The translations under genes were made by a program, and so were the position numbers. The notes below the pieces were generated by a model. The model was not told the DNA's origin. It was given only the letters and a program-made list of their open reading frames with translations, and made no database searches. Positions 7,045-63,873 of a DNA stretch of 64,000 nucleotides are shown here, in pieces; position 1 is the first letter of the stretch; each line of letters starts with the position of its first letter. Location: the NCBI RefSeq assembly GCF_014132355.1, contig NZ_BLZO01000043.1:1-64000 (forward strand). The letters are read 5' to 3'. Source of the stretch: Okeania sp. KiyG1. Its GTDB lineage: Bacteria > Cyanobacteriota > Cyanobacteriia > Cyanobacteriales > Microcoleaceae.

Positions 7045-7083
7045 TCCTAATTATTAATTATTAATTGTTAATTATTAATTGTT

Positions 7084-10304: not shown

Positions 10305-11998
10305 TTCTACTTCTTTGGGGTCAACTTCAACTTCAACCTGTGTAGATTCGTTTTTTGTTGGTAACTTTACTTCTCCAAACTGAGAAAATACTTGTCTAAA
10401 TTTCTCTATATTTTCTCCCCAATAGACTAGACAATGTGACTGACGTGCGGGTAGTTTTGGTTGGTAATTAACGTCTAGGAATTTAATCCTTCCTTTCCAA
10501 AAACAGATGGGTTGATTCCACAGTGGTTTAAACCATTTAGTATCTGTTGATGCTGGCAAGAGAGCGATCGCTTCTGTGACGTTACTGTCATTAACTTCTG
10601 AAATCAGTTTCTCTATCCATTTACCAGGACAGCTATAGGGTGGGTTGATGAATACTTTCCCAAACCATACACAAGCAAGTCCATCTTCTCTTATGGTTTT
10701 GTGGTATTTTGCTGGTATGTGTTTTCCGTCGTCAGAACAGGGGTCTAGGTCTATTTTTCCTAACACAAGTTCTACTAATTCAACAATCTCTGGTGGTGTG
10801 TACCAACAGTCTGAGGATTTTGGTTTAGCTGTTTCTATTTTTGAAGAATTGGATATTGGTGGCTCTTTTTTTACTAAACCTGTTAAGATTTCAGCAAACT
10901 CATGAACATCTCCCGAATAGTAAACTTTTTCATACCCAGGACGAAAATACCAATAACTACCGTCGTTATAGCCTACTTCAATACTTTCTTGATTTGGGAT
11001 ATAAGAAGTGCCCAACTTACCTACAGTACAGCTTGAATGACTTTTGACAAACTTACCTCCTACTTTTTCTGGCACATTGTACAATCTCTGTAGAATGGCT
11101 TCTACTGCATCGGGTTTACCTGCTTTGAATTCTTCCCAGATAGCCTCCGCAAATAGTTTAGTAGAGTTATCTGGTTGAATCCAGTTTCCTGAGTTGGTTT
11201 TTTGTTTAAACTTGATTTCATGCTCATCTTTGATATCGTCCGGAATTATCCGGAAATACCTTTTAAAAGAACCTTTTTTTACTTCTCCGGTACTGCTGTT
11301 GTACCAAGTGACAGTAGGAACCGTAGCTACATCTACTATCTCAGCAGTGTCTATTTGGGTATTTTCTGCTGCCTTAAGCTGAGGAGTTATGCTATCTTTT
11401 GATTTCTGCTCCGCTAAAACTATATCCGTTTTTATACCTTTCAATATTTCAGCAAAGGCAAGAAGGTCGCCAGAACAGTAAACTTTGTTGCGACCAGGAC
11501 GGATATACCAAAAGTTACCGTCGTTATGACCTACCTCGATATCTTCATTCTCGATCTGAAAAACGCCAAAAGTTTCATTTAGATGGAAAGTGCCGGAAGT
11601 ACCTAAATTACATAAAGAAGCAGTAAACTTACCTCCTACTTCCTCTGCTGCTTCGTACAATTTCTGTCGAAAATTTTCAGCAGGTTTTCCTAGTTTGAAT
11701 TCTTTCTCCACCCTATCTATTAAGGGTTGAGTAGTGGGATTGATATCTTTACTCCACCTCTTGGCGGATTCAGATTTTTTGAGACCTACTTGATGTTGAT
11801 TTTGTTTGTTGTTCCAAAGTACCCGAAAATACCTTCGTTCGTTCCCTGCACTTACTTCTCCACTGATGGAGTTGTACCAAGTTACATCAACATCTTTTGA
11901 TGCGTTCTCTGTTGCAGGCAGTTCTGTCTGATTGTCTAGACTATTATCATCTAGACAATTACTACTTTCGGTATATTTTGAGGGTTTTGTGTCCGAGA
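10296..11998 (-). CDS. Phage-type DNA N6-adenine methyltransferase fused to repeated N-terminal modules
   Basis: The C-terminal third is a phage Dam-type N6-adenine methyltransferase: WYTPPEIVELVE, KIDLDPCSD (SAM-binding region), the catalytic NPPY in FINPPYSCPGKW, then ALLPASTDTKWF and FWKGRIKFLD. The N-terminal part repeats a module: VTWYNS...GEV...RYFR, KxGKP, VGGKF, LGTS, EVGHNDGNFWYIRPG and YCSGDLLAFAEIL appear twice. A GTG at 11711 would start after the first VTWYNS unit (DVTWYNSISGEV near 11870), yet that unit clearly belongs to the repeat, so the coding region begins further upstream. There the frame has no start and overlaps the preceding small gene, with a T run at 12004-12009. Host or element DNA modification is the likely role. 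Confidence 0.75.
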
Positions 11999-21471: not shown

Positions 21472-21912
21472 TTAACCTACGGTAATTCCTTCGTGAACTA
21501 ATTCCAGAGTTTCTATAGCAGTTTCATCTGAGGTAGCATTAAAATCTGGAGCTGTCCAAGTTGTAGGCCAGCATTGTTCTAAATTCCACCTGATTTTTTC
21601 TTCTCCTTTGTCATCTGCCAAAATAATCGAAAGATTACGCCTATCCGTTTCCCCATTTTGTAATTTTTTGTGCCATTCCCACATTTCTTGATTATCAGTA
21701 ATTCCTCGTCTTAAGGTAATGTTACCATATTCATTCATTCCAGGGATTTTACGTTGACCTAAAGATTTATCTGTTCCTTCTCTGTAAGTTCCGGTGTTGC
21801 GAGTAGCTGTTAAACCAGTACATTCTTGAAAACCAGCGTGAACAATACCATCCCATTCAACCCAAAAATTATATCCACTGTAAGGATCATGGGGATTAGA
21901 AATCGTTGGCAT
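21472..21912 (-). CDS. eCIS inner tube protein (Afp1/gp19 family)
   Basis: 146 residues; forms the hexameric-ring inner tube that is expelled when the sheath contracts. Family signatures: DPYSGYNFWVEWDGIVHAGF near the N-terminus, GLTATRNTGTYREG, a central NITLRRGITDNQEMWEWHKK and a C-terminal DETAIETLELVHEGI. Length is normal for T4 gp19-like tubes. A purine-rich AGGAGG stands just before the ATG. It follows the sheath genes on the minus strand. A second tube gene (32769) lies on the far side of the IS, as expected for two tube paralogues in one operon. Confidence 0.85.
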   Translation of the reverse strand: MPTISNPHDPYSGYNFWVEWDGIVHAGFQECTGLTATRNTGTYREGTDKSLGQRKIPGMNEYGNITLRRGITDNQEMWEWHKKLQNGETDRRNLSIILADDKGEEKIRWNLEQCWPTTWTAPDFNATSDETAIETLELVHEGITVG

Positions 21913-21984
21913 AAGATAACCTCCTTAAATTGAAATTAATTCATTAATTGTGATAATGAATCTCCATTCATTATCAATTATCAA

Positions 21985-23124
21985 TTATCCATTGGTAATT
22001 GTAATTCCACTACTACTTTGAATCAGCAAAAGTTGAATAAATTCTCCCGGAATAGTCGGAGCTAAACCGACTTCTGCTATTACCTTTCCCATCTCTAGAT
22101 TTTCAGGGGGATTAGTTTCCGCATCGCATTTAACATAAAATGCTTCTTGAGCAATAGCACCTTGAATAGCTCCTTGTTGCCACAAAGATTCACAATAAAC
22201 GCTTAGTTCCCTTTCCAGGCGCATCCATAAACGGAAATCATTGGGTTCAAACACCGTATCCGCTAGATTCTGATTTGCCCAGCGTCCAAAAGTCAGAAAT
22301 AAGCGACGGACATTAACATATTGCCATTCAGGAAGGGAACTAAGAGTTCGCACTCCCCAGACTCGTATCCCTCGTCCTCGTATGCTACGGATACAATTAA
22401 CACCTGCTCCAATTTGGGGATTTAGCTGTGCTTGCTCTGTTGGAGTTAAGGAAAAACTCAAATCCAGTACCCCTTCAAGTTCTATATTGGCAGGTGCACT
22501 ATGTACTCCAAATGTGCTGTCAGTAGTTGCATAAATTCCGGCAATATAACCGCAGGGAGGAATGGACTTAGGATTACTCGGATTTGTCAGATTTTCTATT
22601 TTTAGCCAAGGTGCATATAACGCCCCATTATTGCTCGTCAGTTTCTGTTTTTGCTCATCTAATTTTTGGATATCATTTAAACCATCAAGAATGGCAAAGC
22701 GATCGCCCATACGATTACAATGTTCTAAAACAGTTTGCTGCATTTGAACAACTTCTTCTAGTTGTTTGATTAGCATGATGTCTGGAACACAAACCAAATC
22801 AATATTTTCTAGGATTTCGCTTGCTTCTAAACCTTGTTCCAGTGCCTCAAGAGTATTATCTGCTATTGCCACAACATAACAAAGATTACCTCCCTGTTCA
22901 AAAAATCCTTTGACAGCATCACCCAAATATCCCTTGCTCTGTGGCAAACTACTAAAATATTGGTCAAACTCAGTCCCCAAAGTTAGCTTGAGAGGTCTAT
23001 TCTCACCTGCTTTTACTTTTGCCAAGCCAAGGAATACCGGAACACCAGTCAGTAATTCCGGTTCGGGTGTCGGAACAATATGGGTAAGAGAAACTCCTGG
23101 TATTCTAGACTCATTCGTTGACAT
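21985..23124 (-). CDS. eCIS contractile sheath protein, second paralogue
   Basis: 379 residues of the phage-tail-sheath/Afp2-4 family. N-terminus RIPGVSLTHIVPTPEPELLT; middle GYLGDAVKGFFEQGGNLCYV, NRMGDRFAILDGLND and PCGYIAGIYATTD; C-terminal conserved half NCIRSIRGRGIRVWGVRTLS, NVRRLFLTFGRWANQN, FVEPND-like VFEPNDFRLW and QEAFYVKCDAETNPPE. Forms the outer contractile sheath around the tube. It is shorter in its variable insertion than the neighbour upstream, typical for multi-sheath eCIS. The start follows a weak ribosome site. Confidence 0.85.
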   Translation of the reverse strand: MSTNESRIPGVSLTHIVPTPEPELLTGVPVFLGLAKVKAGENRPLKLTLGTEFDQYFSSLPQSKGYLGDAVKGFFEQGGNLCYVVAIADNTLEALEQGLEASEILENIDLVCVPDIMLIKQLEEVVQMQQTVLEHCNRMGDRFAILDGLNDIQKLDEQKQKLTSNNGALYAPWLKIENLTNPSNPKSIPPCGYIAGIYATTDSTFGVHSAPANIELEGVLDLSFSLTPTEQAQLNPQIGAGVNCIRSIRGRGIRVWGVRTLSSLPEWQYVNVRRLFLTFGRWANQNLADTVFEPNDFRLWMRLERELSVYCESLWQQGAIQGAIAQEAFYVKCDAETNPPENLEMGKVIAEVGLAPTIPGEFIQLLLIQSSSGITITNG

Positions 23125-23179
23125 AAATATTAGTTCGTAGCTCTTAGTTATCCTAAAATTGACTATTTATTGCCTATTT

Positions 23180-24909
23180 TCACGAACCAGACCATTGACT
23201 CAGACGGAAAATCACAAATTCAGCTGGCTTAACTGGTGCAACTCCAATCTCAATAATGACTTGACCTAAATCCCGTACTTCTGGTGGGTTATTCTCTGCA
23301 TCACATTTCACATAAAAAGCTTCTTGGGGAGTAGCTCCAAATAATGCCCCGCTGCGCCAAACATTGGTCAGGTAAGCATTTACATTGCGCCGAATTTTTG
23401 CCCAAAGTTCTGCATCATTCGGTTCAAATACTGTCCACTGAGTTCCTTTCTCAATAGAATCTCTTAGTGAGAGAAACAGACGACGAACGTTGATGTACTT
23501 GAATTCCCCGTTTTCATCACCGCCAATGGTACGGGCACCCCAGATTCTGATATTGCCATTAAGTTCCCGGATACAGTTAATACCATCAGGATTTAGCCCG
23601 TCTTGCTGATTTTTAGTGACTTTGTAGTCTAGTTCTAATGCACCAGAAATTACCTCGTTAGCAGGGGCTTTATGGACTCCCCGTTGAGCATCTACGCGAG
23701 CATAAACTCCAGCAATATGTCCGCTAGGGGGTACAGAGGTATACAAATCTTCACCTTTGCCATTAGGATTCAAAATCCTTTTGACTGGATCGGATACTTG
23801 AATCCAAGGAAAGTAGTATGCAGCATAATTAGAATCATCTGGCTTGTCTTTGTCTTTTACGTTACTAGAGTCTATCGCTACTTGATCATCATTCTTCTGG
23901 TTGCAGTCAAGGATGGCGAAGCGATCGCCCATGTTCTGACAGTGGGTGACAATGGCACTACGGCTAGCTGCATCAGTAATTCCTGGTGCTGCTACAATTG
24001 CAATTTCATCTATCGCCTCAAATTTTTCTAAAACGCCTGTAATATTACCAGCTTCTGTTACACGGGATACATAGCAACGAGAGCCACCATTATTGAAAAA
24101 ACCATAAACAGCATGAGCTAATTGCTTCTGTCTTTCATCCCTTGAGAAATCACCAAAGTATTTTTAAATTCATTAAAGTTAGTACATAATTTGACTTCAT
24201 TAGCAGCAACTGGGGTAAATGTCGGAAATCGTTGTTGGTAATCTGCTGTAATAGTAATCAGTGTTTTTGTTCTGTTACTCTCGTATAAAGTCGAATCGTC
24301 TGTGATCAAAGTAACAGGAATAGTCATCCTTGTAACTTTATATACATCATCGTTCAAGATTTGTACATTACTTGAATCGAGGTCTGTACCGTTAGCCTTT
24401 AACTTCCATGTTGGTACTGTATTATCATCATTAACTGGATACTTATCAAGATATATTTCCCAGTTTGGTGTTTCCGATAAATTTATATCTTTTTGGATTG
24501 TTACAAGAACTTCATTTGTTACTTTAACTGACTCTACAATATACTTAACTTTGACTATTTGATCTGCTGTCGGTGCTGGTTCTATAGTAATTTTTGCTTT
24601 TTTGCTTGCATTTCCCGCTTGGAATGTTGGCTCAATTTCTACACCTGAAGAGTTCCTTGTCTGAGTATCAACAATAAGAACTTTAACTTTTGCTTCTATA
24701 TTAACTGGAAAATTGTTTAGGTTGAATTCTGTTTGTTCTCCATTTCCAGGAAACTCTTCTGATACCTGCATAAGAGGACTTATTGGAATTTGAATTGCAT
24801 CACTTACAACCCCTATAAAACCAGCCGTACTGGTGCTGAGTCCTGTTATTGGAGCAGAACCGGAAGAAATTTCTTCTACATAAACACCGGGCGACAAATA
24901 AGTAGGCAT
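23180..24909 (-). CDS. eCIS main sheath protein, interrupted by a one-base frameshift
   Basis: Sheath of about 570 residues. N-terminal part (24909 to ~24118) begins MPTYLSPGVYVEEISSGSAP, the standard sheath opening, followed by an expanded beta-rich insertion. C-terminal part (to 23180) has GFFNNGGSRCYVSRV, MGDRFAILDC, GHIAGVYARVDAQRGVHKAP, NVRRLFLSLRDSIEKG and QEAFYVKCDAENNPPE. The two frames meet at NEFKN; adding one A to the run of five at 24161-24165 (plus strand) gives NEFKKYFGDFSRDERQ and restores the protein. The C-terminal frame is open across the junction, so it is a single gene with an indel (sequencing error or recent mutation). Confidence 0.85.
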
Positions 24910-24939
24910 TTGATAAACTCCTAGATTAGATATGTTGTA

Positions 24940-25575
24940 CTAATTTCCTTGACGCTCAAGAGAAAAATTCTGTTCAGTTACCTCTCTTAGAGAGATATCA
25001 ACTTCTTCATCAACTTCTTTATAGCCAGTAGCAAATACATTTAGTGTTACCTTGTTGTTTGTCTGAAGTGTTAAAGTTTCTAGACCTAAGCGGTAATTCC
25101 CATCAAAATTGCTTAACGTAAACTTTGGACTGTTGGCAACTTGTATTTTTGCTAAACCTATTCCGTTGGAACCAGAATCTATAACCTTACCTTAAATTCC
25201 AACTGGGAATAAATGAATATCATGTATGGCCGTTATAATTCTATTATTGCTAGAGTCTTCTGTTAAACTAAAATCTTTGGTACCATATTGATTTCCACTT
25301 CCAGGTATGGAAGCTGCAAGAGTATATTCACCTCGAGGTAAATCAACAAAGTAAAAATAACCATCACTAGCTGTAATTTTTCGGTCAGGCCGATCGTTCA
25401 TTTTTTCCCACTGCGAACCGTATTGCAATGCTTTTAGGGATAAAATTTCTTGGAATTTATCTGGCATTGCTATTATTTCTACCATCGCCCCAGAAATTGG
25501 TTTTTCCGTTTCCCCTTCTTCTAAAACCCTACCAGCGATCGATATCTGTGGGTTATATATAATCATATTAAGCAT
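24940..25575 (-). pseudogene. Carboxypeptidase-regulatory-like domain protein of the eCIS, in-frame stop
   Basis: Two beta-sandwich modules in one frame. The first (25575-25192) has SIAGRVLEEGETEKPISGAM, ASDGYFYFVDLPRGEYTLAA, typical of carboxypeptidase-regulatory-like folds. A TAA ends it at PVGI, but the same frame continues GKVIDSGSNGIGLAKIQVAN, NFDGNYRLGLETLTLQTNN and FATGYKEVDEEVDISL to a stop at 24940. A CAA-to-TAA change is the simplest explanation, since a second, equally typical module (GKVxDxxxxGIxxAxI) follows without interruption. It lies between the terminator and sheath genes, where such decoration proteins occur in cyanobacterial eCIS loci. The first half could still fold alone. 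Confidence 0.65.
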
Positions 25576-25594
25576 GATTACTTTCCTTAGTCAA

Positions 25595-26182
25595 CTATTG
25601 AGAGTTAGGTTGATAAACTCCTACCAGTCCCACTTCTGTTACTGCTTCATCTACAGGAACAGAAATAGTAATAGTACAATGCAATACAACCTTGGGTTTT
25701 GTCCCATCTTTTCCACCCATGGCTTGCCAAAATTCCCCAAAACTTTGTAAATTACTAGGACGCAAACTAATTAGTCTCAGGGGGAATTTTTGTCCTTCAA
25801 AGTCATTTTCCACAACATAGGTTTCAGGAATTTGTCTATGGCGCAGTAACACCTTCATAACTTCTCCCAAAAGTTGATGTTCTGCCTGGATATCTTTTTC
25901 ATCTTCAAGCCAAGCAGTAATTAGATATGAACAATCTACCCTAGCAGGGGGACGTTTTTTGAGAGCTTTACCATTACTTTGCCGTTCAACTAACCAACTT
26001 CTGTCACGTAATTCCAAGTTCTCTCGCACGTCGTAGAGAAAACAATTGATTGCTGGCTTTTCTTGGATCGCCCCTTGATAGGGTGTATCAAAACTGATAG
26101 AAACCTCTGTTTTTGTTCCAGGAAGGTGTCGGATTTCTTTGTTCAGTAGAGATTTTAAGGTATCATCTAAATCCTGAAGCAT
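25595..26182 (-). CDS. eCIS tail terminator (DUF4255 / Pvc16 N-terminal family)
   Basis: 195 residues; caps the tube/sheath during assembly (Afp16/Pvc16 role). Motifs: MLQDLDDTLKSLLNKE, VSISFDTPYQGAIQEKPAIN, CFLYDVRENLELRDRSW, PPARVDCSYLITAWLED, LLGEVMKVLLRHRQIPE and SFGEFWQAMGGKDGTKPKVV. This is a well-conserved DUF4255 pattern. It is the first gene of the minus-strand eCIS half-operon, a usual position in cyanobacterial clusters. Confidence 0.85.
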   Translation of the reverse strand: MLQDLDDTLKSLLNKEIRHLPGTKTEVSISFDTPYQGAIQEKPAINCFLYDVRENLELRDRSWLVERQSNGKALKKRPPARVDCSYLITAWLEDEKDIQAEHQLLGEVMKVLLRHRQIPETYVVENDFEGQKFPLRLISLRPSNLQSFGEFWQAMGGKDGTKPKVVLHCTITISVPVDEAVTEVGLVGVYQPNSQ

Positions 26183-41170: not shown

Positions 41171-41587
41171 ATGCCAACAAAAGATAGATACCATGATAAT
41201 TGTAAAAATGCCCTCATCAAAGATAGTTGGACAATAACCCATGACCCTCTTAGGTTAAGATGGGGAAGCAAAGATATGTATGTAGATTTAGGAGCTGAAA
41301 AATTATTAATAGCAGAAAAAAATCAAAACAAAATTGCAGTAGAAATTAAAACTTTTGCTGCTATGTCAGAAGTTAATGCTTTAGAAAATGCATTAGGACA
41401 ATATTTGTTATATCGTTCTGTTATTAGCAGAACTGAACCAGATAGAAAACTTTATTTAGCAATACCTAGTATTGTTTATGCGGACATTTTTGAAGATGGT
41501 TTAGGCAAAATAATTACAGAAGATTATCAATTGTTGTTACTAATTTTTGATATTAATTTGGAGGAAATCATCGAATGGATAGGATAA
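41171..41587 (+). CDS. xisH: XisH, fdxN-element excision controlling factor family
   Basis: 138 residues. Signatures of XisH: AKDRYH-like TKDRYHDNCKNALIKDSWTI, YVDLGAEKLLIAEKNQNKIA, VEIKTFAAMSEVNALENALG, QYLLYRSVISRTEPDRKLYL and IITEDYQLLLLIFDINLEEI. The fold is endonuclease-like (AVEIKTF resembles a PD-ExK core). In Anabaena XisH helps excise the fdxN element; elsewhere its role is unclear and a toxin-antitoxin-like function has been considered. Overlaps xisI by 13 bases, so coupled. Confidence 0.9.
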   Translation: MPTKDRYHDNCKNALIKDSWTITHDPLRLRWGSKDMYVDLGAEKLLIAEKNQNKIAVEIKTFAAMSEVNALENALGQYLLYRSVISRTEPDRKLYLAIPSIVYADIFEDGLGKIITEDYQLLLLIFDINLEEIIEWIG

Positions 41588-41931
41588 ATAACTACCGTGA
41601 AATTATCCAAAAAATTATTCTATCTTATACAAAAATTCCCTATCCTGATGAAAATATTAAATTAGAAACAGTCTTTGACACCCAACAAGATCGTTATTTA
41701 TTAATGATAGTGGGTAGGGAAAAAATAAATTCTAAATATTCAGCAACAAAAAGAGTTCATGGTTGTTTAATTCATGTGGATATTTGGGATGATAAAATTT
41801 GGATTCAACAAGATGGGACAGAAGAAGGTATTGCTAGAGATTTATTAGATGCTGGTATTACTAAAGATAAAATTGTCTTAGCATTTTATGACCCACAAAT
41901 TCGAGAAGAAACAGGTTTTGCTATTGCTTAG
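41575..41931 (+). CDS. xisI: XisI, fdxN-element excision controlling factor family
   Basis: 118 residues: NNYREIIQKIILSYTKIPYP, DTQQDRYLLMIVGREKIN, KRVHGCLIHVDIWDDKIWIQ, QDGTEEGIARDLLDAGITKD and LAFYDPQIREETGFAIA, the usual XisI pattern at usual length. Always paired with XisH in filamentous cyanobacteria, as here. It lies in the cargo island between the two eCIS spike genes; no nearby recombinase or excision element end was seen. Confidence 0.9.
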   Translation: MDRINNYREIIQKIILSYTKIPYPDENIKLETVFDTQQDRYLLMIVGREKINSKYSATKRVHGCLIHVDIWDDKIWIQQDGTEEGIARDLLDAGITKDKIVLAFYDPQIREETGFAIA

Positions 41932-51892: not shown

Positions 51893-52966
51893 ATGCTTGA
51901 ACCAACAGATTTTAGTGAATTTCCTACCGAATATCCCAACTATTTTCCTGGGCAATATTTATTAGCAGATGATTTTAAACTGCAACATGATTATTTAAGC
52001 TATCGCCTTCGTTACCATAACCGAAGTCTTCATGTTTCAGGAATTATTGAAGGACTAGAAGTTACAGTTGCAGATGGTGATAAATCTGTGCTGATTACAC
52101 GTGGATCAGCTATAGATGATCAGGGGAATCTGATTGTTTTAAAAGAAGAACAAGAGTTTAATGCATTTAATGGTTTAAGTGAAGGGGAACTTTATATTCA
52201 ATACGATGAACAACTTGCAGAAAAACAACAAGATGGTGTAGACAATAGCTATACACGCTCGATAGAGACTCCTATTTTTGGATTTGCTGATCCAACACCT
52301 GAGCATTGTGTAAAGTTGGCAAAACTGAAAATTTCAAGCGATCTCATTAGCGACAATGATCCTAACATTCGAGAATATTCAGGTGTGTATTTACCAAGCT
52401 CTAATGGCACAGCATTGACTCTACGTTATCAGGGTAATGCTGATCATAGGGCAGTTTTCACAGGAAGTTTAAAGATAGATGGAGATTTGACGCTACAGAA
52501 TGGAGTAGCGGTGAATAACATTTCTAGCAATGCTAATCTTGGGGATAATAATGATACGACAATATCAACAACGAAAGCAATCAAAAGCTATGTTGATAGC
52601 AAAGTAGAAGAAGATGGAGAATGGGAAACACTAAAATTAATAAACGGTTGGACAAATCAAGATAGCAACGAACTTGGATATTTTAAGGATAGTTCGGGAA
52701 TTGTTCACCTGAAAGGCGTGCTAAAATATGAAGATTTAATTCAATCGAAAACTGCGTTTCAACTTCCTGGTGATTGTAAACCATCAACTGATTGTTATTA
52801 CCCTGTTGGTAGTTATCCTCCATTCTCTTATGAATATTATCAATATGGTCCTTTCATCAGCTATATCACTATCTCCGCCGGCACTGGAGACGTAAAATAC
52901 ATTTGTAGGAGCGTTTTGAATAATGCCGTAATGTATTTAGATGGTATTACTTTTAGAGCAGCATAA
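51893..52966 (+). CDS. eCIS tail fibre / receptor-binding candidate
   Basis: 357 residues. N-terminal adaptor NYFPGQYLLADDFKLQHDYL, SYRLRYHNRSLHVSGIIEGL is the type found on proteins attached to the baseplate. The middle (ALTLRYQGNADHRAVFTGSL, DGDLTLQNGVAVNNISSNAN, DTTISTTKAIKSYVDSKVEE) resembles phage tail-fibre stems, and the C-terminal ~90 residues (GYFKDSSGIVHLKGVLKYED) resemble a receptor-binding tip. Its C-terminus shows no similarity to the DGR template repeat, so it is not a visible DGR target. Confidence 0.7.
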   Translation: MLEPTDFSEFPTEYPNYFPGQYLLADDFKLQHDYLSYRLRYHNRSLHVSGIIEGLEVTVADGDKSVLITRGSAIDDQGNLIVLKEEQEFNAFNGLSEGELYIQYDEQLAEKQQDGVDNSYTRSIETPIFGFADPTPEHCVKLAKLKISSDLISDNDPNIREYSGVYLPSSNGTALTLRYQGNADHRAVFTGSLKIDGDLTLQNGVAVNNISSNANLGDNNDTTISTTKAIKSYVDSKVEEDGEWETLKLINGWTNQDSNELGYFKDSSGIVHLKGVLKYEDLIQSKTAFQLPGDCKPSTDCYYPVGSYPPFSYEYYQYGPFISYITISAGTGDVKYICRSVLNNAVMYLDGITFRAA

Positions 52967-53837: not shown

Positions 53838-54266
53838 ATGGCAGATTTCATTCTGATCACAGGCGATCAAGCTATGTTTAACCCGACTTTTGGCCAAGCC
53901 ATTGTCACCGTCCGTCCAGGGAATTTAATTGGCACAGGTAAGAGTAAAATAAACCAGAAACTTGTCTGCGTAGACGGCGATGAAAAAAAGGTCATTGTTC
54001 CTGGTTGTCCTTACATGACACCACAATATAGTATTCCAGGGGTGGGAATGCTTTCCATAGAATCCTTGGCAGGCAATCAAAAAGCTAAAAATACCAAATC
54101 TGGGGGTAAACCTGTATTGCTGAAAGGAGCATCCTTCAAAGCTAAATTTCAAGTGATGGTTCCCGCACAACAACCCTCAGCACCTAGTCCTATTCCCGAT
54201 GCTACCCCCCAATACTCCGGGACTGGTACATTTATGACGATGAATATGAAGGTAAAAGGAACATGA
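53838..54266 (+). CDS. PAAR-like candidate spike-tip protein of the eCIS
   Basis: 142 residues. ADFILITGDQAMFNPTFGQA, LIGTGKSKINQKLVCVDGDE, VIVPGCPYMTPQYSIPGVGM and KPVLLKGASFKAKFQVMVPA give a compact beta-rich, glycine-turn-rich protein such as those found at the Afp10/PAAR position of cyanobacterial eCIS. No strict PAAR motif or clear metal-binding triad is seen. Preceded by a dispersed GC-rich repeat (about 53785-53812). The next gene overlaps its stop by 4 bases. Confidence 0.5.
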   Translation: MADFILITGDQAMFNPTFGQAIVTVRPGNLIGTGKSKINQKLVCVDGDEKKVIVPGCPYMTPQYSIPGVGMLSIESLAGNQKAKNTKSGGKPVLLKGASFKAKFQVMVPAQQPSAPSPIPDATPQYSGTGTFMTMNMKVKGT

Positions 54267-54487: not shown

Positions 54488-54637
54488 GGGAGTTAAATTA
54501 GACAACCTTTCGGCAAACCTACTAAGCTGTCTAATTTTGGTTGATTTTCGGAAGCTAAAATAACTTCACTGGAACTGACTGGACTCTTCCACCATATCAG
54601 TAAATTCCCATTTACCAACTCTGACAATGAAGAGTGC

Positions 54638-54779
54638 TAGGGGCAGAAAGCAGGAGACTACACACTAGGCACATAGACAATACGAAAACCCCTATTGTTG
54701 TTGTGGTTGTCCGCATTGTTCCTATTCCGATTGGCGCTCCGACAATTCCTGGCATTGTTGTTCCAACTGCCTCCACGAA
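54638..54779 (-). repeat. DGR template repeat (TR), 142 bp
   Basis: Equal in length to the VR at 58233-58374. Read on the coding (minus) strand, the first ~85 bases hold AAC/AAT-rich codons (SWNNNARNCRSANRNRNNA), the hallmark of TRs. The last 57 bases are identical to the VR (initiation of mutagenic homing side). Hand comparison finds 15 differences, 14 at TR adenines. It lies downstream of the RT gene on the same strand. Confidence 0.9.
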
Positions 54780-54882
54780 GCCGGGATTGTCAGTCCCAGA
54801 AATTATTCTATCACAAATTTGAATGAATTTACAGCGCTTTTTAAATTGATGAACTACATCGCCATAACCAAAACCTTCTAGG

Positions 54883-54900
54883 GACGTTGCATGCAACGTC
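54883..54900. repeat. Perfect 18 bp palindrome between RT and TR
   Basis: GACGTTGCA/TGCAACGTC, perfect two-fold symmetry, 12 bases downstream of the RT stop and about 100 bases before the TR. It resembles small dispersed palindromes of cyanobacteria and could act as a terminator or DNA structure. Confidence 0.6.
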
Positions 54901-55743
54901 TCTACTGTGGTCTACTGAAATGAAAACTGCTGTAATATTTTTTGTTTTAAATGCCAGGTATTGCCGTGGGCTAAATGGGCAAACCAACTTTGCAGAGATT
55001 TTTGGATTTGAGTAGATTCTATTTTTCCTAATTGGTAGTCTGTTTGTAATTGTCTTAATTTTTTTCTAGCCAATCTTAAATTTTCGGAACGTATTCTAAT
55101 GCGGTCTGGCAAAACTCGAAAACCGACAAAGTTAGCACCTTTTTTTGTGGAAAATAATTGACTTTTAATGGGATGAATCTTGAGGCGGAGGTTGGCTAAA
55201 TATGTTTCGATTTTTTGTCTGGCTGCGATTAATAATTCTCTGTCGTCTGAGAATAAGCTAAAGTCATCAACATAGCGCAGATATTTTTTTAACTTTAGTT
55301 CTTCTTTGATAAAATGGTCAAAGTTATTTAAGTATAAATTGCCAAAAAATTGACTGGTTAAATTTCCTAGAGGTAAACCTCTTCTGCGGTTTATTGGTGT
55401 GAGTAAATCATCTCCTGGAAAATAATTTAATACTGGGATTTGTTCGTTACTCCCATCAATAATTTTGTCGATTAACCATAGGGTGTCTTGACATTTGATT
55501 TTCCGACGAATAATTTCTTTGAGTATTTGATGGTCGATACTAGGGAAATATTTTGCTATGTCGCACTGTAAAATATAGCGACTGGAACGGGAAAATTCTG
55601 TAAAACTCACATCTTGCACCAACAAAAGTTGATATGAAGAACAATAACTGAAATACTTATCTGATCGGAGGTGGGAGTTAGTTATCTCTTCTCAATAGAG
55701 AACTATAATGAAGAAGTAATAAAAACCAGAGGGTAAATTAATC

Positions 55744-56145
55744 TTACTCTACCCGATGACCTGCTTTTTCTTCATCGGGATATAAATCTAACCAACTTTC
55801 ATAAAGTGCTTCGATAGCTGAAGTTAATTGCTCAATTTTACCTCTTCTAATCACAGCATTCACTCCATCTATATGTGCTTGACTTCCTGCTTTTCCTAAA
55901 TGTTTAAAACGCGAAAATTCCCCTTTTTTATTACTTTTTGGGAAAACAGATCTAGACCCTTTGAGTTGATAATACCAATAATGATATTTTTGCCCTTTGG
56001 CTTGATACCGTGCTACATAACAATCAGCAGGAGCAACCCATCCTGAAGCTTCAATTTCTGATTTTTCACGTTTTAAAGCAGCTATAGCTTCTCTAATACG
56101 GTCTGCTCGCTCTGCTATTTCTAGATTACTGTTGATTTTAGCCAT
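55744..56145 (-). CDS. Passenger gene of the IS: basic hypothetical protein
   Basis: About 133 residues from MAKINSNLEIAERADRIREA; a longer frame to 56217 runs into the operator-like palindrome. Helical N-terminus, then ASGWVAPADCYVARYQAKGQ, KYHYWYYQLKGSRSVFPKSN and HLGKAGSQAHIDGVNAVIRR. The SGW...Y(H/W)YWYY pattern is like the broken protein at 5.5-6.2 kb and other cyanobacterial proteins of unknown role. Being divergent from the transposase inside the IS is unusual; a regulator or host-interaction gene is possible. Confidence 0.55.
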   Translation of the reverse strand: MAKINSNLEIAERADRIREAIAALKREKSEIEASGWVAPADCYVARYQAKGQKYHYWYYQLKGSRSVFPKSNKKGEFSRFKHLGKAGSQAHIDGVNAVIRRGKIEQLTSAIEALYESWLDLYPDEEKAGHRVE

Positions 56146-56205
56146 TTTTTGAGCTTTTTGATTATGGAATATGTTATTATAGTTCTCTATTTTAAACAGA
56201 GAACT

Positions 56206-57328
56206 ATGTTGCCTCACCCCATTTTATCCCAAGTTGACGAATTACTCTGCTCTTTAAAAGAATTAATGCCCACAATTTATCAAAAGAAACTCTAGAATCT
56301 GTTTTAGGCTTGTTTCTACATAGTCAAGGAAATGCTGTTCCTCATCATTGTCAAACCAAATCAGAAAGTGCTATTAGTCGCTTCTTAAATCATTATAATT
56401 GGTCAACTCGTTCTCTGATACGCACTGTTCGTTCTTTCATTCTCAACTTAGTTTTATCTGAAAGAATAAAAGGACGAAAACTCATTTTACAAGTTATTCT
56501 AGATTTAACAACTCTTGAAAAAGTAGGGAAGTTTGTTCATCTAAAAGAATTAGTTAGAGTTTATAATCATAAAAAGGTTTACACATCGTTGTTCTTTACT
56601 TAGTTATAGGTAATTGGCGATTTCCTTGGAGTTTTCGTGTATATAGAGGCAAAGGAACCTCATCACCTTCTCAACTGGCTTTAAAATTACTGAATACATT
56701 GCCTTCTATTTTGACAAAATCTTTCCCAATTTATGTTTTAGGAGATACAGCCTTTGGGACAATTAAATTCATTGAAAAACTCCGTGACAGTTCTTTTAAT
56801 CATCATGGAATTCTTGGCATCCCTAATACCAGAAAATTAACTGATGGACGTAAAGTGTCTGAACTAAAAACTCGTGGACAACAAGTTTATCTAAACGGCT
56901 TAAATTTTCCTGTCTTCTTATCATGGGTTTGGCTAAAACGAGATGGAAAAAGAGTTAAGCGATTTGTTATTTCAACTAAACCTATGAAGGGAAAAACTAT
57001 CGTCCGTTGGGGAAAACGTAGATGGCAGATTGAAGGTTTCTTTAAAACGGCCAAACATCAATTTAGTCTCCATCGTTTTGGACAAAAAACTTTATTAGGG
57101 GTTTATCGTTGGTTAATTCTTTCTCTCGTCTCTTATTTATTAGCTTATTGGATTTATTTACATAATGGTTATTTTGATGATTTAGATTGGTATGATTCAG
57201 CCGAAAAAGCCTTAGTTTTGCTCTTACCTCAGATTTTACTCCTTTCCCTTATCAAAAAATTAAAGTTACTAAATCCTTGGTTTTATAAACACGGTTTGGA
57301 ACTTTGTCTTGTCAGGTGCAAGATGTGA
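56206..57328 (+). pseudogene. DDE transposase of the IS, two frame breaks
   Basis: Frame pieces: MLPHPILSQVDELLCSLKEL (from 56206), then LFLHSQGNAVPHHCQTKSES, FILNLVLSERIKGRKLILQV (to ~56570), then NWRFPWSFRVYRGKGTSSPS, FPIYVLGDTAFGTIKFIEKL (DDE aspartate region), RWGKRRWQIEGFFKTAKHQF (glutamate region) and YRWLILSLVSYLLAYWIYL. One extra A at the runs 56282-56285 and 56571-56575 repairs both breaks. The protein ends exactly in the right terminal repeat. IS4/IS701-like by the W-x(2)-E-x(6)-K pattern; the exact family was not checked. Confidence 0.7.
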
Positions 57329-57649
57329 GTAAAACGACGCAGAGCTTTATGGGTGCCAAAATTGATTCTATTGGCATAGGAATCATGGATAAATGTTTTT
57401 TCAAAGATGGGAACAATAATATTACATAGGGCATGATGGATAATTCTGTCCCGGTAGGGGGCAGCAGAAATCATTCTGGTTTTGCGGTCGATAATTTTGA
57501 AGGTTCTATATTCTCCTGGCTGATAAGTTTTGGTTTCTAGCTGTGTTTTTAGTTTTAGTAGTTCTGGCTCTAAGTTGTAGTAAAATTTCAGAACGTTGTC
57601 TCTATATTTTTTTCCTTTCTGGGATTTTTTGGCTGCTAGGAGGAGATTT

Positions 57650-58075
57650 TCAAACCTGGCTATTTGAGGAAATAGGTTTTTGTGTCTTTTCACTGTTAAT
57701 ACTTTGGGGATTTTTCTGGTTTTTTTGTTGTTTAACCCAGCCACCTAATTCTTTGCCTATATCGCTGATTAGTTGGCTGACATATTCATAGCGTTTGTTG
57801 TTGATTAATTGGAAATCTAAGAGAATTCTGGTTTGATAACGAATGATGTCTAGTTTGGGATTGAGAGATTCTAGTAATTTGAGTTTTTCTGAGGCATATT
57901 TGGCAGTAATTAGGGATTCTAAAAAATCGTATAAGCCATTAATCCCCTCCTGGGAGGGGTTAGGGGTGGGTCTATCTCCGATTGTGTATTTGTGAGTTTT
58001 GGGTAGTCTGTTAATAATTGGTACATACCAAATAATTAAATCGTAGGTTTTTTGAATAATTGATAGTTCATTCAT
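57650..58075 (-). CDS. avd: Avd, DGR accessory variability determinant, with in-frame repeat insertion
   Basis: 141 residues: [95 protein letters not shown]. This is the four-helix bundle that forms a barrel bound to DGR RTs. Between GDR and NGLYDF, ten residues ([10 protein letters not shown]) are encoded by a copy of the dispersed CCCACCCCTAACCCC...GGAGGGG repeat, in frame, in a loop between helices 1 and 2. Otherwise normal length. Lies between target gene and RT, the usual order. Confidence 0.85.
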
Positions 58076-58252
58076 GTAATTAAGGTAAGGCAGGAGGCAG
58101 AAGGCAGAAGGGTTAGAGGTGGGTCTATTTCCTAAATCTCAAAAAAAAATCGACCCGCTTTAGTGGGGAAAGGAGAGGAAAGAGGAAAAAGGGCAAAGGG
58201 GAAAAGGGGAAAAGAACAAAGGGGAAGAATCTTAGGGGCAGAAAGCAGGAGA
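58076..58252. other. Gap between target gene and avd
   Basis: Holds the 3' end of the VR plus purine-rich GGGGAAAAGGGGAAAAG-like repeats (58160-58230). The second side after the VR, where DGRs often have a hairpin, shows no obvious stem. Confidence 0.4.
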
Positions 58253-58374
58253 CTACACACTAGGCACATAGACAATACGAAAACCCCTAATGTTGATGTG
58301 GTCGTCCGCATTGTCCCAATCCCGATAGGCGCTCCGACAAAGACCGGCAATGCTGCCCCAACTGCCTCCACGAA
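58233..58374 (-). repeat. DGR variable repeat (VR), 142 bp, at the 3' end of the target gene
   Basis: Covers the last ~40 codons (FRGGSWGSIAGLCRSAYRDW and on) plus 20 bases past the stop. Identical to the TR in its final 57 bases. Variable codons GGC, AGC, ATT, GGT, CTT, TAT, GAT, TGG, ATC correspond to AAC/AAT/AGG in the TR. Confidence 0.9.
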
Positions 58375-58960
58375 ACACCCTATTATTGTTATATCCTCCT
58401 TCCAGCCAAGCACTACCATCATCAGGCGCTTCATTATAATCATCATGCCAAATATCCTCACACCATTCATAAACATTGCCGTGCATATCGTATAAACCAA
58501 AAGCATTGGGAGGAAAAATTCCCACCTCTGTTGTTTTTGTTCGATTTTCTCCTGGGGGTCTATCATCACTGCCATTATAGTTAGCTAATTCAGTCGTTAT
58601 ACTTTCGCCAAAATAATAAGGTGTTGTTGTTCCTGCACGACAAGCATATTCCCACTGACTCTCACTAGGCAAACTGTAAGTTCCCTCCGTTATTTCGGAT
58701 AGCTTTTCACAAAATTCTGTCGCATCGTTCCAACTTACTTTTTCCACAGGGAGGTTTTGTTCCTTAAAATTAGAAGGATTTATTTCCATAATTTCCTGAT
58801 ATTGACGTTGAGTAATGAGATATTTGCTCATGTAGAAAGGCTGGATATTGACCTTATGTATCGGCTTTTCTCTGTTATCCTTTTCTGAACCCATTTGAAA
58901 ACTACCCCCAGGAATATAAACCAGTTCCAAGAATAAATCTAATTGATTTATGGTCAACAT
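58253..58960 (-). CDS. DGR target: formylglycine-generating-enzyme (SUMF1) fold protein
   Basis: 235 residues. LELVYIPGGSFQMGSEKDNR, HKVNIQPFYMSKYLITQRQY, NLPVEKVSWNDATEFCEKLS, YSLPSESQWEYACRAGTTTP, FGLYDMHGNVYEWCEDIWHD and VFRGGSWGSIAGLCRSAYRD, RGFRIVYVPSV: a complete FGE-sulfatase/C-type-lectin-like fold, the usual DGR target. The VR covers the C-terminal ligand-binding surface. The two active-site cysteines of true FGE are not evident, so it is probably a binding protein, not an enzyme. No signal peptide. Start MLTINQLDLFLEL. Confidence 0.85.
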   Translation of the reverse strand: MLTINQLDLFLELVYIPGGSFQMGSEKDNREKPIHKVNIQPFYMSKYLITQRQYQEIMEINPSNFKEQNLPVEKVSWNDATEFCEKLSEITEGTYSLPSESQWEYACRAGTTTPYYFGESITTELANYNGSDDRPPGENRTKTTEVGIFPPNAFGLYDMHGNVYEWCEDIWHDDYNEAPDDGSAWLEGGYNNNRVFRGGSWGSIAGLCRSAYRDWDNADDHINIRGFRIVYVPSV

Positions 58961-59122
58961 ATACGTTCTTTGCTAAAATTAACTACTATTCTATTTAAGC
59001 ATATCTCAGTAATTTATCTAAATGTTGGTAGAAGACCCGCGCTCTCTCGCACCTTTAGCGTCGGGATGAATACCAACCCATGCTATAATATAGCAACTAA
59101 TATTAGTAACAGGTCGATAAAA

Positions 59123-60506
59123 TTGAAAGCTAGATATAAATATCGTATCTACCCTAATCGTGTCCAAATAACTAAATTAAATCAATTATTTGGTTGTTGT
59201 CGGTATGTTTGGAACCAAAGTTTAGCACATTGTAATCAGTTGTATATTAATGGTATTATAAAGCCTTCATATACTGATTTAACTAAACAATTCATAACAC
59301 AAGCTAAAAGAGAATTACTTTGGTTGAAAGAAGTTGCTTCAACTCCATTACAACAATCATTAAAAGATTTAGACCAAGCTTACAAAAATTTTTTCAATAG
59401 TTGCAAAGGTCAACGAAAAGGAATTAAGGTAAAACCACCTAAATTCAAGAGTAGAAAGTCAAAGCAAACTGCCAGATTTGTTGGTGCTAATTACCAGATT
59501 AATCAAGATAAAATCTATCTACCCAAAGTAGGTAAGATAAAAATAGTTTGGTCAAGGCCATTAGCTAGTAAGCCTACATCTCTAACAATTATTAGAGATT
59601 CAGCTAATCGCCCTAGCATTGCTAGTTTTGTCGTAGAAATTAACCATGAATCTTTGCCTATAACTGATAATTCAATCGGGATAGATTTAGGTATTTCGAC
59701 ATTTGCTACATTGAGCAATGGAGGGAAAATATTAGCTCCCAAACCTCTTAAAAAGAACTTGAAAAAGTTAGCTAAATTTCAAAGAAAGTTTGCTAAAACT
59801 GAACTAGGTAGTAAACGTCGTGAAAGACGCAGGCTAAAAATAGCTAGGCTACACGCCAAAATCAAGGATATTTCCTACGGAATGCTGCGCAAACGTACAG
59901 ATTTTCTACACAAGTTGTCTACTAATTTAGTTAGAAAATATGACACAATTGTATTAGAAGACTTGAATGTTTCTGGCATGATTTCCTACGGAATGCTTCC
60001 CTACGGGATGCTACGCAAACGCAAACGTAATCGCAAGTTAGCTAAGGCAATTAGTGATTTAGGATGGCGACAATTCCGTACTTTAACAGAGGCGATCGGG
60101 TGAGAAATATGGTCGTGAGTTTAGGGTAATAAATAGATGGGAGCCGACAAGTCAAAAATGCAGTTGTTGTGGTTTCCGTGGAGGCAAAAAAGAATTGAAT
60201 GTCCGTGAATGGACGTGTCTCAAATGTGGGGCAAAACATGACAGAGATGTGAATGCTGCTATCAATATTTTAGGAGTTGTGCAACCGAAAACCAAGGTTG
60301 AAGTAATTCAAACTGAAGCATTAGAAACACCTATACAACTATCACTTTTTGTTAGCGTAGCTCCTCCGCAGGAGGCTGTCGTCGCGGGCGGGCAGTCCGA
60401 GACGTTAAACAAGACGAGGATCCGACGTAATTCTACCCGTAAAAAGGTAGTTGATGGCAATGAGTCGTCTACCCGCCCTGAGTCAATTCAACTTCGGTTG
60501 TTCTGA
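59123..60506 (+). pseudogene. tnpB: TnpB of a fourth lineage, with small repeats inserted in frame and a frame break
   Basis: Start chosen at TTG 59123 (LKARYKYRIYPNRVQITKLN), the normal TnpB opening; upstream frame is a leader artefact. RuvC residues in GIDLGISTF and LEDLNVSGM, third in [10 protein letters not shown] (60240). The first frame ends at LTEAIG (60103); the rest (EKYGREFRVINRWEPTSQKC, CCGFRGG...CLKCGAKHDR) is in another frame. Two copies of a TCCTACGGAATGCT-type small repeat add SYGMLRKR after KIKDI and SYGMLPYGMLRKRKR after NVSGMI. A third small repeat (GTAGCTCCTCCGCAGGAG) lies near 60356 in the tail. Confidence 0.75.
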
Positions 60507-60690
60507 TGGATGGGAATCCCGCGCTCTCCCGTAGGGGAGCGTCGGGAGGATGTCAAAGACATCTCTAGTCGCTAAATTAAAGGACTAAAGCTATGGTAGA
60601 ATTAGAAAAAAAACACACTACTAATATGTTGCCCATGTCCTACAGTGAATTTAAAATTATAGCTGAGGTGCGCGATCGCTATGTTAAAAT

Positions 60691-60900
60691 ATGCAGATTC
60701 AGATAAATTTAAGGAGTCTAATTATACCTACATCAGAACAAAAGACTAGATGTTATGTACTATGTTGCTGGTTTACCAGACTCTACTTACCTATTAATAT
60801 TGTTCGTTTAGATGAACGCACAGGAAATATTTTTTTCCTTGCAGGTGAAGATAACATCATAGAAATATATCCTAACGGAAATTGGAGATACATTGAATGA
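60691..60900 (+). CDS. DUF6888-like small protein
   Basis: 69 residues: SLIIPTSEQKTRCYVLCCWF, TRLYLPINIVRLDERTGNIF, FLAGEDNIIEIYPNGNWRYI. The pattern R(T)GNxxxLAGE...I.P.GNW matches DUF6888. It overlaps the next gene by 4 bases (ATGA), and DUF6888/DUF6887 pairs are frequent in cyanobacteria, possibly as toxin-antitoxin-like modules. Upstream, 60593-60705 encodes a 37-residue peptide of doubtful status. Confidence 0.65.
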   Translation: MQIQINLRSLIIPTSEQKTRCYVLCCWFTRLYLPINIVRLDERTGNIFFLAGEDNIIEIYPNGNWRYIE

Positions 60901-61112: not shown

Positions 61113-61699
61113 TTTTTAGTCCGATATGTGGCGATTATCATGCGATCGCCACTGATATAAAATTTGGTTGAACAATCGTCATTATCGGGATTTAATATGA
61201 TATAAACCTGGTTTCTCTGCTTTTGAGCGTTTCAAGTTAATTGGTAAATAAAATCTTGTTACCCAACAAGATAGAATATAACATTGTAAGAGTTGTGCTT
61301 GTGTAGGAATAATTTTTTCTCCAAAAGCTGAACAAATAATATTAGATGTAGGTTGGGTTGAGGTACGAAACCCAACAACAATCGGTAGTGCGTCAAGGAA
61401 GTGTGGTCCGGGTGGGAAGTGTGGGAAGTGTGGGAAGTGTGGGGCTGGGGGTGGGTTCGGTTAGGGGTCGGTCTCGTACGGACTAAGGATGCTTAGTCCC
61501 TACCGTACTTCTTAATGCACTATTTTAGATGAAACAGTAAGGTTGTGTGGGGTTTCCCTTCGGGAAGCTCCGCTAACACTCCGTTCAACCCAACCTACAT
61601 TTTTAGGTGTGTCAGTCTACTACGAAAAAAGACTGAATAATATTAATTTTACGATAAAATTCTAAGATATCCATTCTACAATTACCTGAGATAAAACCT
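61113..61699. repeat. Intergenic region with short tandem repeats
   Basis: About 590 bases without a gene. Contains a 9-base tandem GGGAAGTGT repeated about three times (61410-61440), a GTAGGTTGGGTTGAGG-type debris sequence, and a promoter-proximal AT-rich stretch before the ATPase. Similar cyanobacterial repeat debris recurs at 45.2 kb. Confidence 0.5.
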
Positions 61700-63873
61700 A
61701 TGGTAGAACCATTAAAAGCCAATTTACAAACTCAGAATACAAAAACAAAAATATTTAATAAATCCATCACTTCAAAAACACAAATCACCCCAGATATTAA
61801 TGGGTTATTACCTCTTATTCAAAATTTAGATCGACGTATCACTCAATTTATTTCCTCTCTCCAAAAACACTGTCAAACTGAACAAAAATATGGCATAACA
61901 TGGTTTCAAAAAATGGAGATAGCAGATGATAAAACCTCTAGTCAAATTTCTGCAATTTCTCTGATTTATTGGTTACAAAATACTTTTGAATTATCTCCTT
62001 TTGACTTAGATATTTTAACAGTCACCCTGGCACCGGAAATAGATAGAGAATATGAAAGATTTTATGCTTATATTCAAGATGAAACAAGTCACAAAAAACC
62101 TACGGTAGATTTAGTCTTAAATCTATACTGTTCTAATATTCTGGAAAAACTCTCACGACGTCAACATTTTACTACCAATGCACCTCTAATTTCTAATGGT
62201 TTACTCTATCTATCCTCAGAATCAACTTTCCTTTCTCAACATCTGATTATTAATCCACAAGTTGTCAGATTACTATTAAATCAACCAGGATTAGATTCTC
62301 GACTTATTTCTTATTGTCAATTAAAAGAAACAAATATATCTGCCGATATCTTATATCTCAATCCCGATATCCAAGCCAAACTACAAACCTTAGTTAAAGA
62401 AGATTGGCAGAAACAACAACCACTTCTGCTTTATTTTCAAGGAAGCGATCGCCCAGGTAAATGCAACACAGCTCAATTTCTTGCTCAAACTTTAGAAATT
62501 CCTTTATTAATAGCTGATTTAGCCAAATTATTAGAAGATAAATCCAACTTCCAACAAAACCTAGAATTAATATGGCGAGAAGCATGGTTTTTTCAGCGAT
62601 TATTATATTGGGAAAATTTCGATATTCTCTACCTCCCAGAAAATCAAATTCCCTATCAATCTTTTATGAGAAAAATTGAAAAAAAAGAGGTATTACTATC
62701 TTTTCTGGAATAAAAAAATGGCTACCCACAACCACAGGTGCAAAAGGTTTAATTACCATTACTTTTACAATTCCTGAATCCAGTCAACGTCGAGAATATT
62801 GGCAAAATTATTTAAACAAATTAGAAATTAGTATTGAAGAGAAAGAATTAGAAATATTAAGCGATCGCTTTCGTCTCACCCCAGACCAAATAGCTAATGC
62901 AGTAGCTACTGCCTATAATACCACACGTTGGCAACAAATATCTGAAACTAAAAATGAATCTTTAAACAATACTTCCACAGAAAAATCCCAACCCTCATTT
63001 ATTGACTTATGTAGTGCAGCACGCCATCAATCAGGTTACGATTTAATAAATCTAGCCCGTAAAATTGAACCAAAATATACTTGGGATGATATAGTATTAC
63101 AGCCCAAGCAACTAACACAACTACAAAATATTTGTAAAGAAGCAGAATATCAAAATTTAGTATATAATAAATGGGGTTTTACTACTAAATTATCATTAGG
63201 AAAAGGTTTAAATGTTCTGTTTTCTGGCACTCCCGGTACAGGAAAAACTATGGCAGCAGAAGTAATTGCCAATCATTTACAACTAGATTTATACAAAATA
63301 GATTTATCGCAAATAGTTAGTAAATACATTGGCGAAACAGAAAAAAATCTCAACCGAATATTTACCGCAGCAACCAATTCAAATGCCATTCTCTTATTTG
63401 ATGAAGCTGATGCCTTGTTTGGTAAACGTACAGAAATACAAGATGCTCGCGATCGCTACGCTAATATTGAAGTCAGCTATTTATTACAAAAAATGGAAGA
63501 GTATGAAGGCATTACCATATTAACTACAAATTTTCGTAATAATATGGACAAAGCCTTTGAAAGAAGACTCCGATATATTATTGAGTTTTCCTTACCAGAT
63601 GCCAACCATCGTCACCTAATTTGGCAAAAGATTTTTCCCAAAAATGCACCTTGTAGTCCCGATCTAGATTTAGAGTTTCTAGCACAAAATTTTGAGATTA
63701 CTGGAGCTAATATACGCAATATCGCCCTGACAGCAGCATTTTTAGCAGCAGATGATAGTCAAGTAATTGAGATGGTCCACTTAATTCGAGCCATACGTCG
63801 AGAGTACGACAAAATGGGACAAATTCTGCGGGATAAGAATTTAGGTTCTTATGTAGGGTTTGCTGAAATGTAG
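61700..63873 (+). CDS. eCIS AAA+ ATPase (Afp15-like), one-base frameshift
   Basis: About 725 residues over two frames. N-terminal helical region: SLIYWLQNTFELSPFDLDIL, TVTLAPEIDREYERFYAYIQ, HLIINPQVVRLLLNQPGLDS. The second frame from about 62690: GIKKWLPTTTGAKGLITITF, the ATPase core LGKGLNVLFSGTPGTGKTMA (Walker A), NAILLFDEADALFGKRTEIQ (Walker B), RYANIEVSYLLQKMEEYEGI, TTNFRNNMDKAFERRLRYII. Adding one A to the run of eight at 62679-62686 joins them (IEKKRGITIFSG). Remodels or assists assembly of the contractile particle. The last eCIS gene in the window. 63874-64000 shows nothing. Confidence 0.85.

Follow-up and report, generated by a model that had tools for sequence, protein, structure and literature searches.

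The 64,000-nucleotide stretch analysed here (the window; positions 1 to 64,000 of contig NZ_BLZO01000043.1 of the filamentous cyanobacterium Okeania sp. KiyG1) contains a diversity-generating retroelement (DGR) located within a gene cluster for a phage-tail-like extracellular contractile injection system (eCIS). The DGR cassette comprises a target gene that ends in a variable region (VR), the accessory gene avd, a reverse transcriptase (RT) gene and a template repeat (TR) (Table 1). The RT gene is not intact. It consists of two open reading frames (ORFs) that are parted by an insertion sequence (IS).

Components of the cassette

The TR and VR align without gaps over 142 bp and differ at 15 positions. 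On the coding (minus) strand, 14 of these differences fall on adenines of the TR, which contains 37 adenines (hypergeometric P = 9.5e-9), with changes from A to G at seven positions, A to T at six and A to C at one. The lone non-adenine difference, from G to T, may reflect an RT error beside changed adenines or a later point mutation. The two repeats are identical over their last 57 bases. The VR continues 20 bases beyond the stop codon of the target gene. The differences change 12 codons of the target, within codons 202–224; in known DGR targets the variable residues form a single patch on the protein surface. When the TR is read in the frame of the target, 12 of its 46 codons are AAC or AAT, and mutation of the adenines in these codons cannot create stops. 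Chance or non-DGR repeats were ruled out by the adenine bias and the anatomy of the cassette. The TR tail CCTAGCACTCTTC is common to the window, Okeania sp. SIO2C9 (locus L070) and locus L073, and the tail of L072 carries two changes. Most VRs compared depart from this tail at two or three bases; the TR and VR of L072 agree. We take this contrast between the TR and VR tails to resemble the distinction between the initiation of mutagenic homing (IMH) and IMH* sites of Bordetella phage BPP-1.

A Pfam scan of the target protein detected no domain besides the formylglycine-generating enzyme (FGE)-sulfatase domain. A sequence search of the PDB ranks PvdO (5hha) first and formylglycine-generating enzymes next. 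In fourth place is the Treponema denticola variable protein TvpA (2y3c; E 2.5e-18), a DGR target. The Avd protein scores above the cut-offs of both PF22296 (55 bits; cut-off 40) and NF033474 (117 bits; cut-off 80), and a PDB search with it returned no match.

The N-terminal part of the RT and the part bearing the GNLTSQ and YVDD motifs lie on separate ORFs, each of which includes IS-derived residues. The GxxxSQ motif is a hallmark of DGR RTs. The RT of SIO2C9 forms one frame of 365 codons, uninterrupted at the point where the window gene carries the insertion. The best NCBIfam matches of the RT pieces are group II maturase models, below cut-off. In the PDB, the RT piece is closest to 8ub7, an entry titled just "Reverse transcriptase", which is presumably the BPP-1 complex.

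The cassette had been recognized in an original prediction made from the sequence without database searches. Realignment of the repeats reproduced its counts exactly, and the differences, rather than being spread evenly over the four bases, are concentrated at adenines (14/15). The presence of avd and of an FGE-fold target with the VR at its 3′ end was likewise confirmed by the family matches. Both RT motifs that it named are present; however, the gene described as a single RT is split by the IS.

The transposase of the IS matches PF01609 (DDE_Tnp_1) above the cut-off. A copy of the IS on another contig (C152) has a transposase with a single open frame of 401 codons. The NCBIfam IS4 and IS701 models score below cut-off for both the window transposase fragment and the 401-residue copy; the best model for the latter is IS701 (E 6.4e-17, 61.5 bits; cut-off 170). 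The element resembles IS4/IS701-type insertion sequences in its DDE_Tnp_1 domain, inverted ends and target duplication of 4–5 bp, but it differs in scoring below the IS701 cut-off and in carrying a 157-residue ORF without a family match. This ORF sits between 31-bp imperfect inverted repeats (55679–55709 and 56176–56206), and its region is perhaps a nested element.

The IS recurs at full length, with 100% identity, at five other sites in the genome, and the six full-length copies listed, when aligned, differ solely by two single-A indels. The copies on contigs C64 and C82 have flanks in common at the contig ends and may be one and the same. Other copies with readable flanks show a 4-bp target duplication in two cases and a 5-bp duplication in one. 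Based on the IS ends and duplication, the identity of the copies and the SIO2C9 RT that is open through the insertion point, the insertion in the RT gene is most likely true and, given the near-identical copies elsewhere in the genome, recent.

Table 1. Features of the DGR cassette, the inserted IS and the neighbouring eCIS genes (positions in the window).
Feature	Position	Strand	Remarks
eCIS spike-tip gene	53838..54266	+	left neighbour of cassette; followed by a 74-aa ORF ending at 54487
Stretch without counterpart in L207	54488..61038	.	DGR cassette and TnpB/IS605-type element
Template repeat (TR)	54638..54779	-	3′ of RT gene
RT gene, 3′ piece	54912..55605	-	with GNLTSQ and YVDD; ORF 54912-55625 begins inside IS; PF00078
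Target-site duplication TAAAA, left copy	55601..55605	.	flanks IS
Insertion sequence, IS701-like, 1,724 bp	55606..57329	.	15-bp inverted ends CTCACATCTTGCACC / GGTGCAAGATGTGAG; DDE transposase
157-aa ORF inside IS	55744..56217	-	no family match; opposite transposase strand
IS transposase	56310..57328	+	two frames here, ORFs 56310-56603 and 56699-57328
Target-site duplication TAAAA, right copy	57330..57334	.	flanks IS
RT gene, 5′ piece	57330..57744	-	ORF 57283-57744 continues into IS
avd accessory gene, 141 aa	57650..58075	-	PF22296 (bAvd) and NF033474
Variable region (VR)	58233..58374	-	3′ end of target gene, extends beyond stop codon
DGR target gene, 235 aa	58253..58960	-	FGE-sulfatase domain only; PF03781, E 2e-52
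TnpB (IS200/IS605-type) ORFs	58943..60506	+	between target gene and ATPase gene
Winged-helix/AAA+ ATPase gene	61658..63873	+	right neighbour of cassette; two frames here

Placement among related retroelements

A single scan that used the RT piece of the window as query gathered 76 related loci; all search patterns were located in the C-terminal (C) piece. The RT tree contains 37 rows: the C piece of the window, BPP-1 Brt, 24 of the 76 related loci and 11 further RTs from the KiyG1 genome. The window RT pairs with that of SIO2C9 (100/100) within a branch that also holds BPP-1 Brt (100/100); the bootstrap had not settled completely, and the branch leading to BPP-1 is long. As the original prediction had supposed, the window RT falls with the DGR RTs rather than outside them. 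Two rows of the tree (L132 and L144), for which no TR was found, are DGRs by kinship only. Identity as a group II intron RT or a retron was rejected, since the maturase models remain below cut-off and the tree places the RT with DGR RTs.

An adenine-biased repeat pair was found near the RT in 58 of the 76 loci. In 52 of these 58 the TR follows the RT gene, as in the window, and avd was found in 68 loci. In the best repeat pairs, 878 of 985 differences are at A, a figure that is no independent test because having at least 60% of differences at A was itself a condition for choosing a pair. The phylogeny and the anatomy identify the element as a canonical cyanobacterial DGR, one more member of a well-described family.

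The RTs of the SIO2C9, Hydrocoleum sp. CS-953 and Trichodesmium DGRs are 83–88% identical to the window C piece. The SIO2C9 locus also resembles the window in avd (81%) and in the FGE domain of its target (61%). It differs in having an open RT, where that of the window is split, and an extra TR-like copy between the target gene and avd. No eCIS protein was matched in the 15.6 kb of this locus, whereas the window cassette lies inside an eCIS cluster. The two TR-like copies of SIO2C9 are located at 8410–8730 and 10692–11027 of the locus; one separates the target gene from avd, and the other follows the RT gene. The VR of this locus is more similar to the upstream copy, with 10 of 12 differences at A, compared to 11 of 20 for the other. 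Two FGE gene ends of SIO2C9 (L214 and L217) differ from the downstream copy mainly at A (9/12 and 14/16).

The DGR of BPP-1 (NC_005357) has the same components, namely RT, Avd, TR and a VR at the 3′ end of the target gene. However, its order is mtd-avd-TR-brt, while the window element is arranged as target-avd-RT-TR, is chromosomal and has a broken RT. PMC10907252 describes a cyanobacterial DGR "clade 5E" with putative conflict systems and treats FGE as a subtype of the CLec folds. The window element is also a cyanobacterial DGR. The VMAP family had no Pfam match among the 45 window proteins scanned, a subset of the ORFs. One related locus (L120, 3208–11900) consists of a DGR with two FGE targets that adjoins VMAP/trypsin-like and AAA genes and lies alongside the tail cluster of a prophage.

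Apparent silencing of the RT in the window and RT loss among relatives

The mechanism of DGR retrohoming is known from BPP-1. By analogy, in a cassette ordered target/VR, avd, RT and TR, the RT in complex with Avd would have copied TR RNA into cDNA and misincorporated bases at adenines. This cDNA would then have taken the place of the VR in the FGE-fold target, with the 3′ end of the repeat, which stays unchanged, as its anchor. The cassette would have come between the spike-tip and AAA+ ATPase genes of the eCIS cluster. Later, an IS701-like element would have jumped into the RT gene and split it, and the target would have been frozen at its last sequence. We thus consider it highly probable that the locus represents a standard cyanobacterial DGR that was later silenced by an IS701-like insertion in its RT, with an incidental adjacency to the eCIS. 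Retrohoming presumably made the VR and ceased with the IS, and the element, judged from its sequence, is apparently dead now. The near-pure signature of the window (1/15 non-A) fits a recent stop and is no proof of it. The adenine signature had originally been read as a sign of activity in the recent past. It does imply past activity, but not a working element, as the RT is split and no other DGR-type RT was found in the draft genome. A DGR requires an intact RT gene to be active, but not to be recognized by descent.

The genome assembly is a draft (10.98 Mb, 198 contigs, 92% complete). It contains 36 RVT_1 matches, and the window RT piece detects 13 places in it, of which only its own site is strong and the other 12 are at most 32% identical. 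Eleven of these 12 weak places were fetched. They form a single group in the tree, apart from the DGR RTs (100/100), and 10 of the 11 pass a group II intron maturase cut-off; the remaining RT (L036) has the same best model, below cut-off. Neither the RVT_1 search nor the search with the RT piece found a second DGR-type RT in the draft genome.

The genome has two bAvd matches, one in the window and one on contig C11. The C11 locus (L165, C11:52000-62000; 1853-8109) encodes a 1,053-residue TPR-FGE target with a VR-like end, followed by a truncated avd that is open for 102 residues and then by a TnpB ORF; the 10 kb retrieved gave no match to an RT. The DNA flanking this locus on both sides aligns with both sides of the SIO2C9 DGR, of which it is therefore probably the counterpart. 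In the assembly, neither of the two DGRs detected in the genome has an intact RT. Contigs C42, C53 and C171 (L209, L210 and L211) also carry FGE genes whose 3′ ends are VR-like. These ends resemble the SIO2C9-type TR and are possible orphan variable regions. Remote VRs were considered as targets of the window TR and rejected, since the FGE ends on C11, C42, C53 and C171 fit the SIO2C9-type TR better. Among the matches listed, and against a reference TR that comes from another species, the differences at A are 20/30 for C171, 9/19 for C11, 11/23 for C42 and 16/42 for C53.

Across the 76 related loci, the RT is open in 61, broken in 12 and cut by a contig end in three, which were dropped from the comparison of open and broken states. 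Among the six loci from Okeania, Hydrocoleum and Trichodesmium (L070, L071, L072, L073, L128 and L138), only the SIO2C9 RT (L070) is open. The lesions of the others differ. In L071 the first 125 residues are missing and a stop follows further along; L072 has stops near codons 51–65, L073 changes frame between residues 112 and 140, L128 is frameshifted near 205, and L138 lacks residues 1–244. A single frameshift such as that of L128 may be a sequencing error. The RT is open in 60 of the 67 other evaluable loci (Fisher 2.9e-4 against the six, window excluded), a value that is descriptive, as the group was picked post hoc and its rows are related by descent and mostly derived from metagenome-assembled genomes (MAGs) or drafts. 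The N-terminal rule used for scoring the RT state may mis-score L101, which has one stop (residue 34). The Trichodesmium MAG that contains L072 (G011) has a second DGR outside the 76, with an RT that is 63% identical to that of the window and open for 315 codons. This open RT speaks against a general loss, and the comparison concerns the lineage of the window RT alone.

The proportion of non-A differences varies among loci with a broken RT, from 1/16 in L101, 1/18 in L123 and 1/17 in L143 to 3/15 in L072 and 8/22 in L073. Because the first three have one non-A difference each, a pure adenine signature is a poor clock, and dating the loss of the RT by such differences is weak. A clean adenine signature is compatible with an element that is now dead, which corrects a tempting reading.

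DGR decay and IS neighbours are already known from reports on cyanobacterial DGRs. PMC7517822 describes transposases near cyanobacterial DGRs, most widespread among them IS200/IS605, as well as a degraded DGR cassette in Anabaena sp. 90 and a paralogue in PCC 7120 with remnant TR-VR homology. The literature searched, partly available as text, yielded no account of an IS inserted in a DGR RT gene; this does not prove that none exists. PMC8867640 reports, citing Pfreundt et al., that T. erythraeum IMS101 grown in the laboratory expressed the template RNA highly with no detectable mutagenesis; it also describes marine metagenomes with localized hypervariability.

It is possible, albeit doubtful, that RT loss is a regular last step in Okeania, Hydrocoleum and Trichodesmium, in which an FGE receptor is diversified, a useful variant spreads and loss of the RT then locks this variant. 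Two DGRs would have been locked in the window strain. IS insertion, frameshift or deletion would all be routes to such a loss. With an IS that looks fresh and a close relative whose RT is open, the window offers a case for following how fast the VR signature decays after RT loss, and for asking whether RT loss fixes a chosen receptor.

Several observations weigh against a DGR silenced by the IS. In addition to the poor clock noted above, the adenine signature of the window is not pure, with one difference at G. The portion of the genome absent from the draft could hold a second RT, and cells without the IS could coexist in the strain. The A-run indels that distinguish IS copies, together with the ATPase gene in two frames, hint at assembly errors; such indel errors would not, however, yield a 1.7-kb insertion with a target duplication.

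It is very improbable that the element still works, either with a DGR RT supplied in trans or through assembly of the two RT pieces. The pieces are otherwise open, avd, TR and target are intact and VR-like ends occur elsewhere in the genome, but no RT that could act in trans was found in the draft or beside the C11 avd, and the N-terminal and GNLTSQ/YVDD parts are on different ORFs that both include residues from the IS. An assembly artefact in a strain whose RT is intact is scarcely credible: the IS is repeated in the genome, with contigs C64 and C82 ending at it and A-run indels varying between copies, but the duplication flanking the window IS is a perfect 5 bp, three other copies have duplications of their own, and a false join is not expected to create one.

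Setting of the cassette within the eCIS cluster

The eCIS cluster spans both strands. Tube, sheath and Pvc16 genes are located at 21472–26182 (−), and the genes from tube to spike tip at 32754–54266 (+) are followed by the winged-helix/AAA+ ATPase gene at 61658–63873 (+). The closest eCIS clusters, L207 (genome G017) and L208 (genome G002), have spike tips that are 79–80% identical to that of the window. Homology to both reaches position 54487, the end of the 74-residue ORF and the last stop codon before the cassette, and restarts at ∼61 kb. No match to 54488–60886 was found in L207 or L208, and the DGR cassette is absent from both. L207 has 393 bp in place of 6,551 bp in the window. Compared to SIO2C9, DGR-like sequence begins at 54496. 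The comparison with these two clusters shows that they do not have the cassette, and not by which route it moved.

DGR parts were found in none of eight eCIS loci of genomes from the family (4–20 kb each), and an eCIS cluster in none of the 76 related DGR loci (1.13 Mb, median 15.8 kb). L120 alone among the latter has a sheath match; it was rejected as an eCIS and instead belongs to the tail of a prophage, where Mu Gp36 and FII tube families also occur. L091 has an ATPase match only (31%). In the main text of an eCIS receptor catalogue (PMC12923769), a word search found no mention of diversity-generating, retroelement, formylglycine, FGE or C-type lectin. A joint literature search for DGRs and contractile injection systems returned just one review, whose two mentions of such systems both stand among its references. 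Since neither the related eCIS and DGR loci nor this literature show a pairing, the association of the DGR with the eCIS looks like a local event.

The original prediction had described the DGR as embedded in the eCIS locus, which is correct as to position, with the spike tip on one side and the ATPase on the other, but not as to any functional tie. It had also raised display of the target with the eCIS, which we found unsupported. The target would then be a receptor or cargo on the injection particle, diversified to change the target cells. We regard a functional tie of this kind as extremely unlikely. The cassette does lie inside the cluster, and the BPP-1 DGR diversifies a phage tail protein (Mtd, as annotated); against this, the cassette is on the opposite strand, its target has no Pfam domain besides FGE, the orthologous L207 and L208 clusters are without a DGR, and none of the 8 eCIS or 76 DGR loci is paired. 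There is no positive evidence for a bolder version of receptor locking, in which the locked receptor was adopted by the surrounding eCIS. None of the other loci compared showed a DGR within an eCIS cluster, and no functional meaning was found for this position. The eCIS most probably plays no part in the DGR, and its adjacency appears incidental.

The two frames of the AAA+ ATPase gene overlap (61658–62713 and 62680–63873), and the gene forms one frame of 735–738 codons in L207 and L208. The two-frame gene represents either a real lesion or an assembly indel. The eCIS gene between Tail_P2_I and the spike tip (51893–52966) has no Pfam match. It matches L207 and L208 in several partly repeated segments, and its product is a candidate fibre. 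An xisH/xisI pair is located inside the eCIS cluster at 41171–41931.

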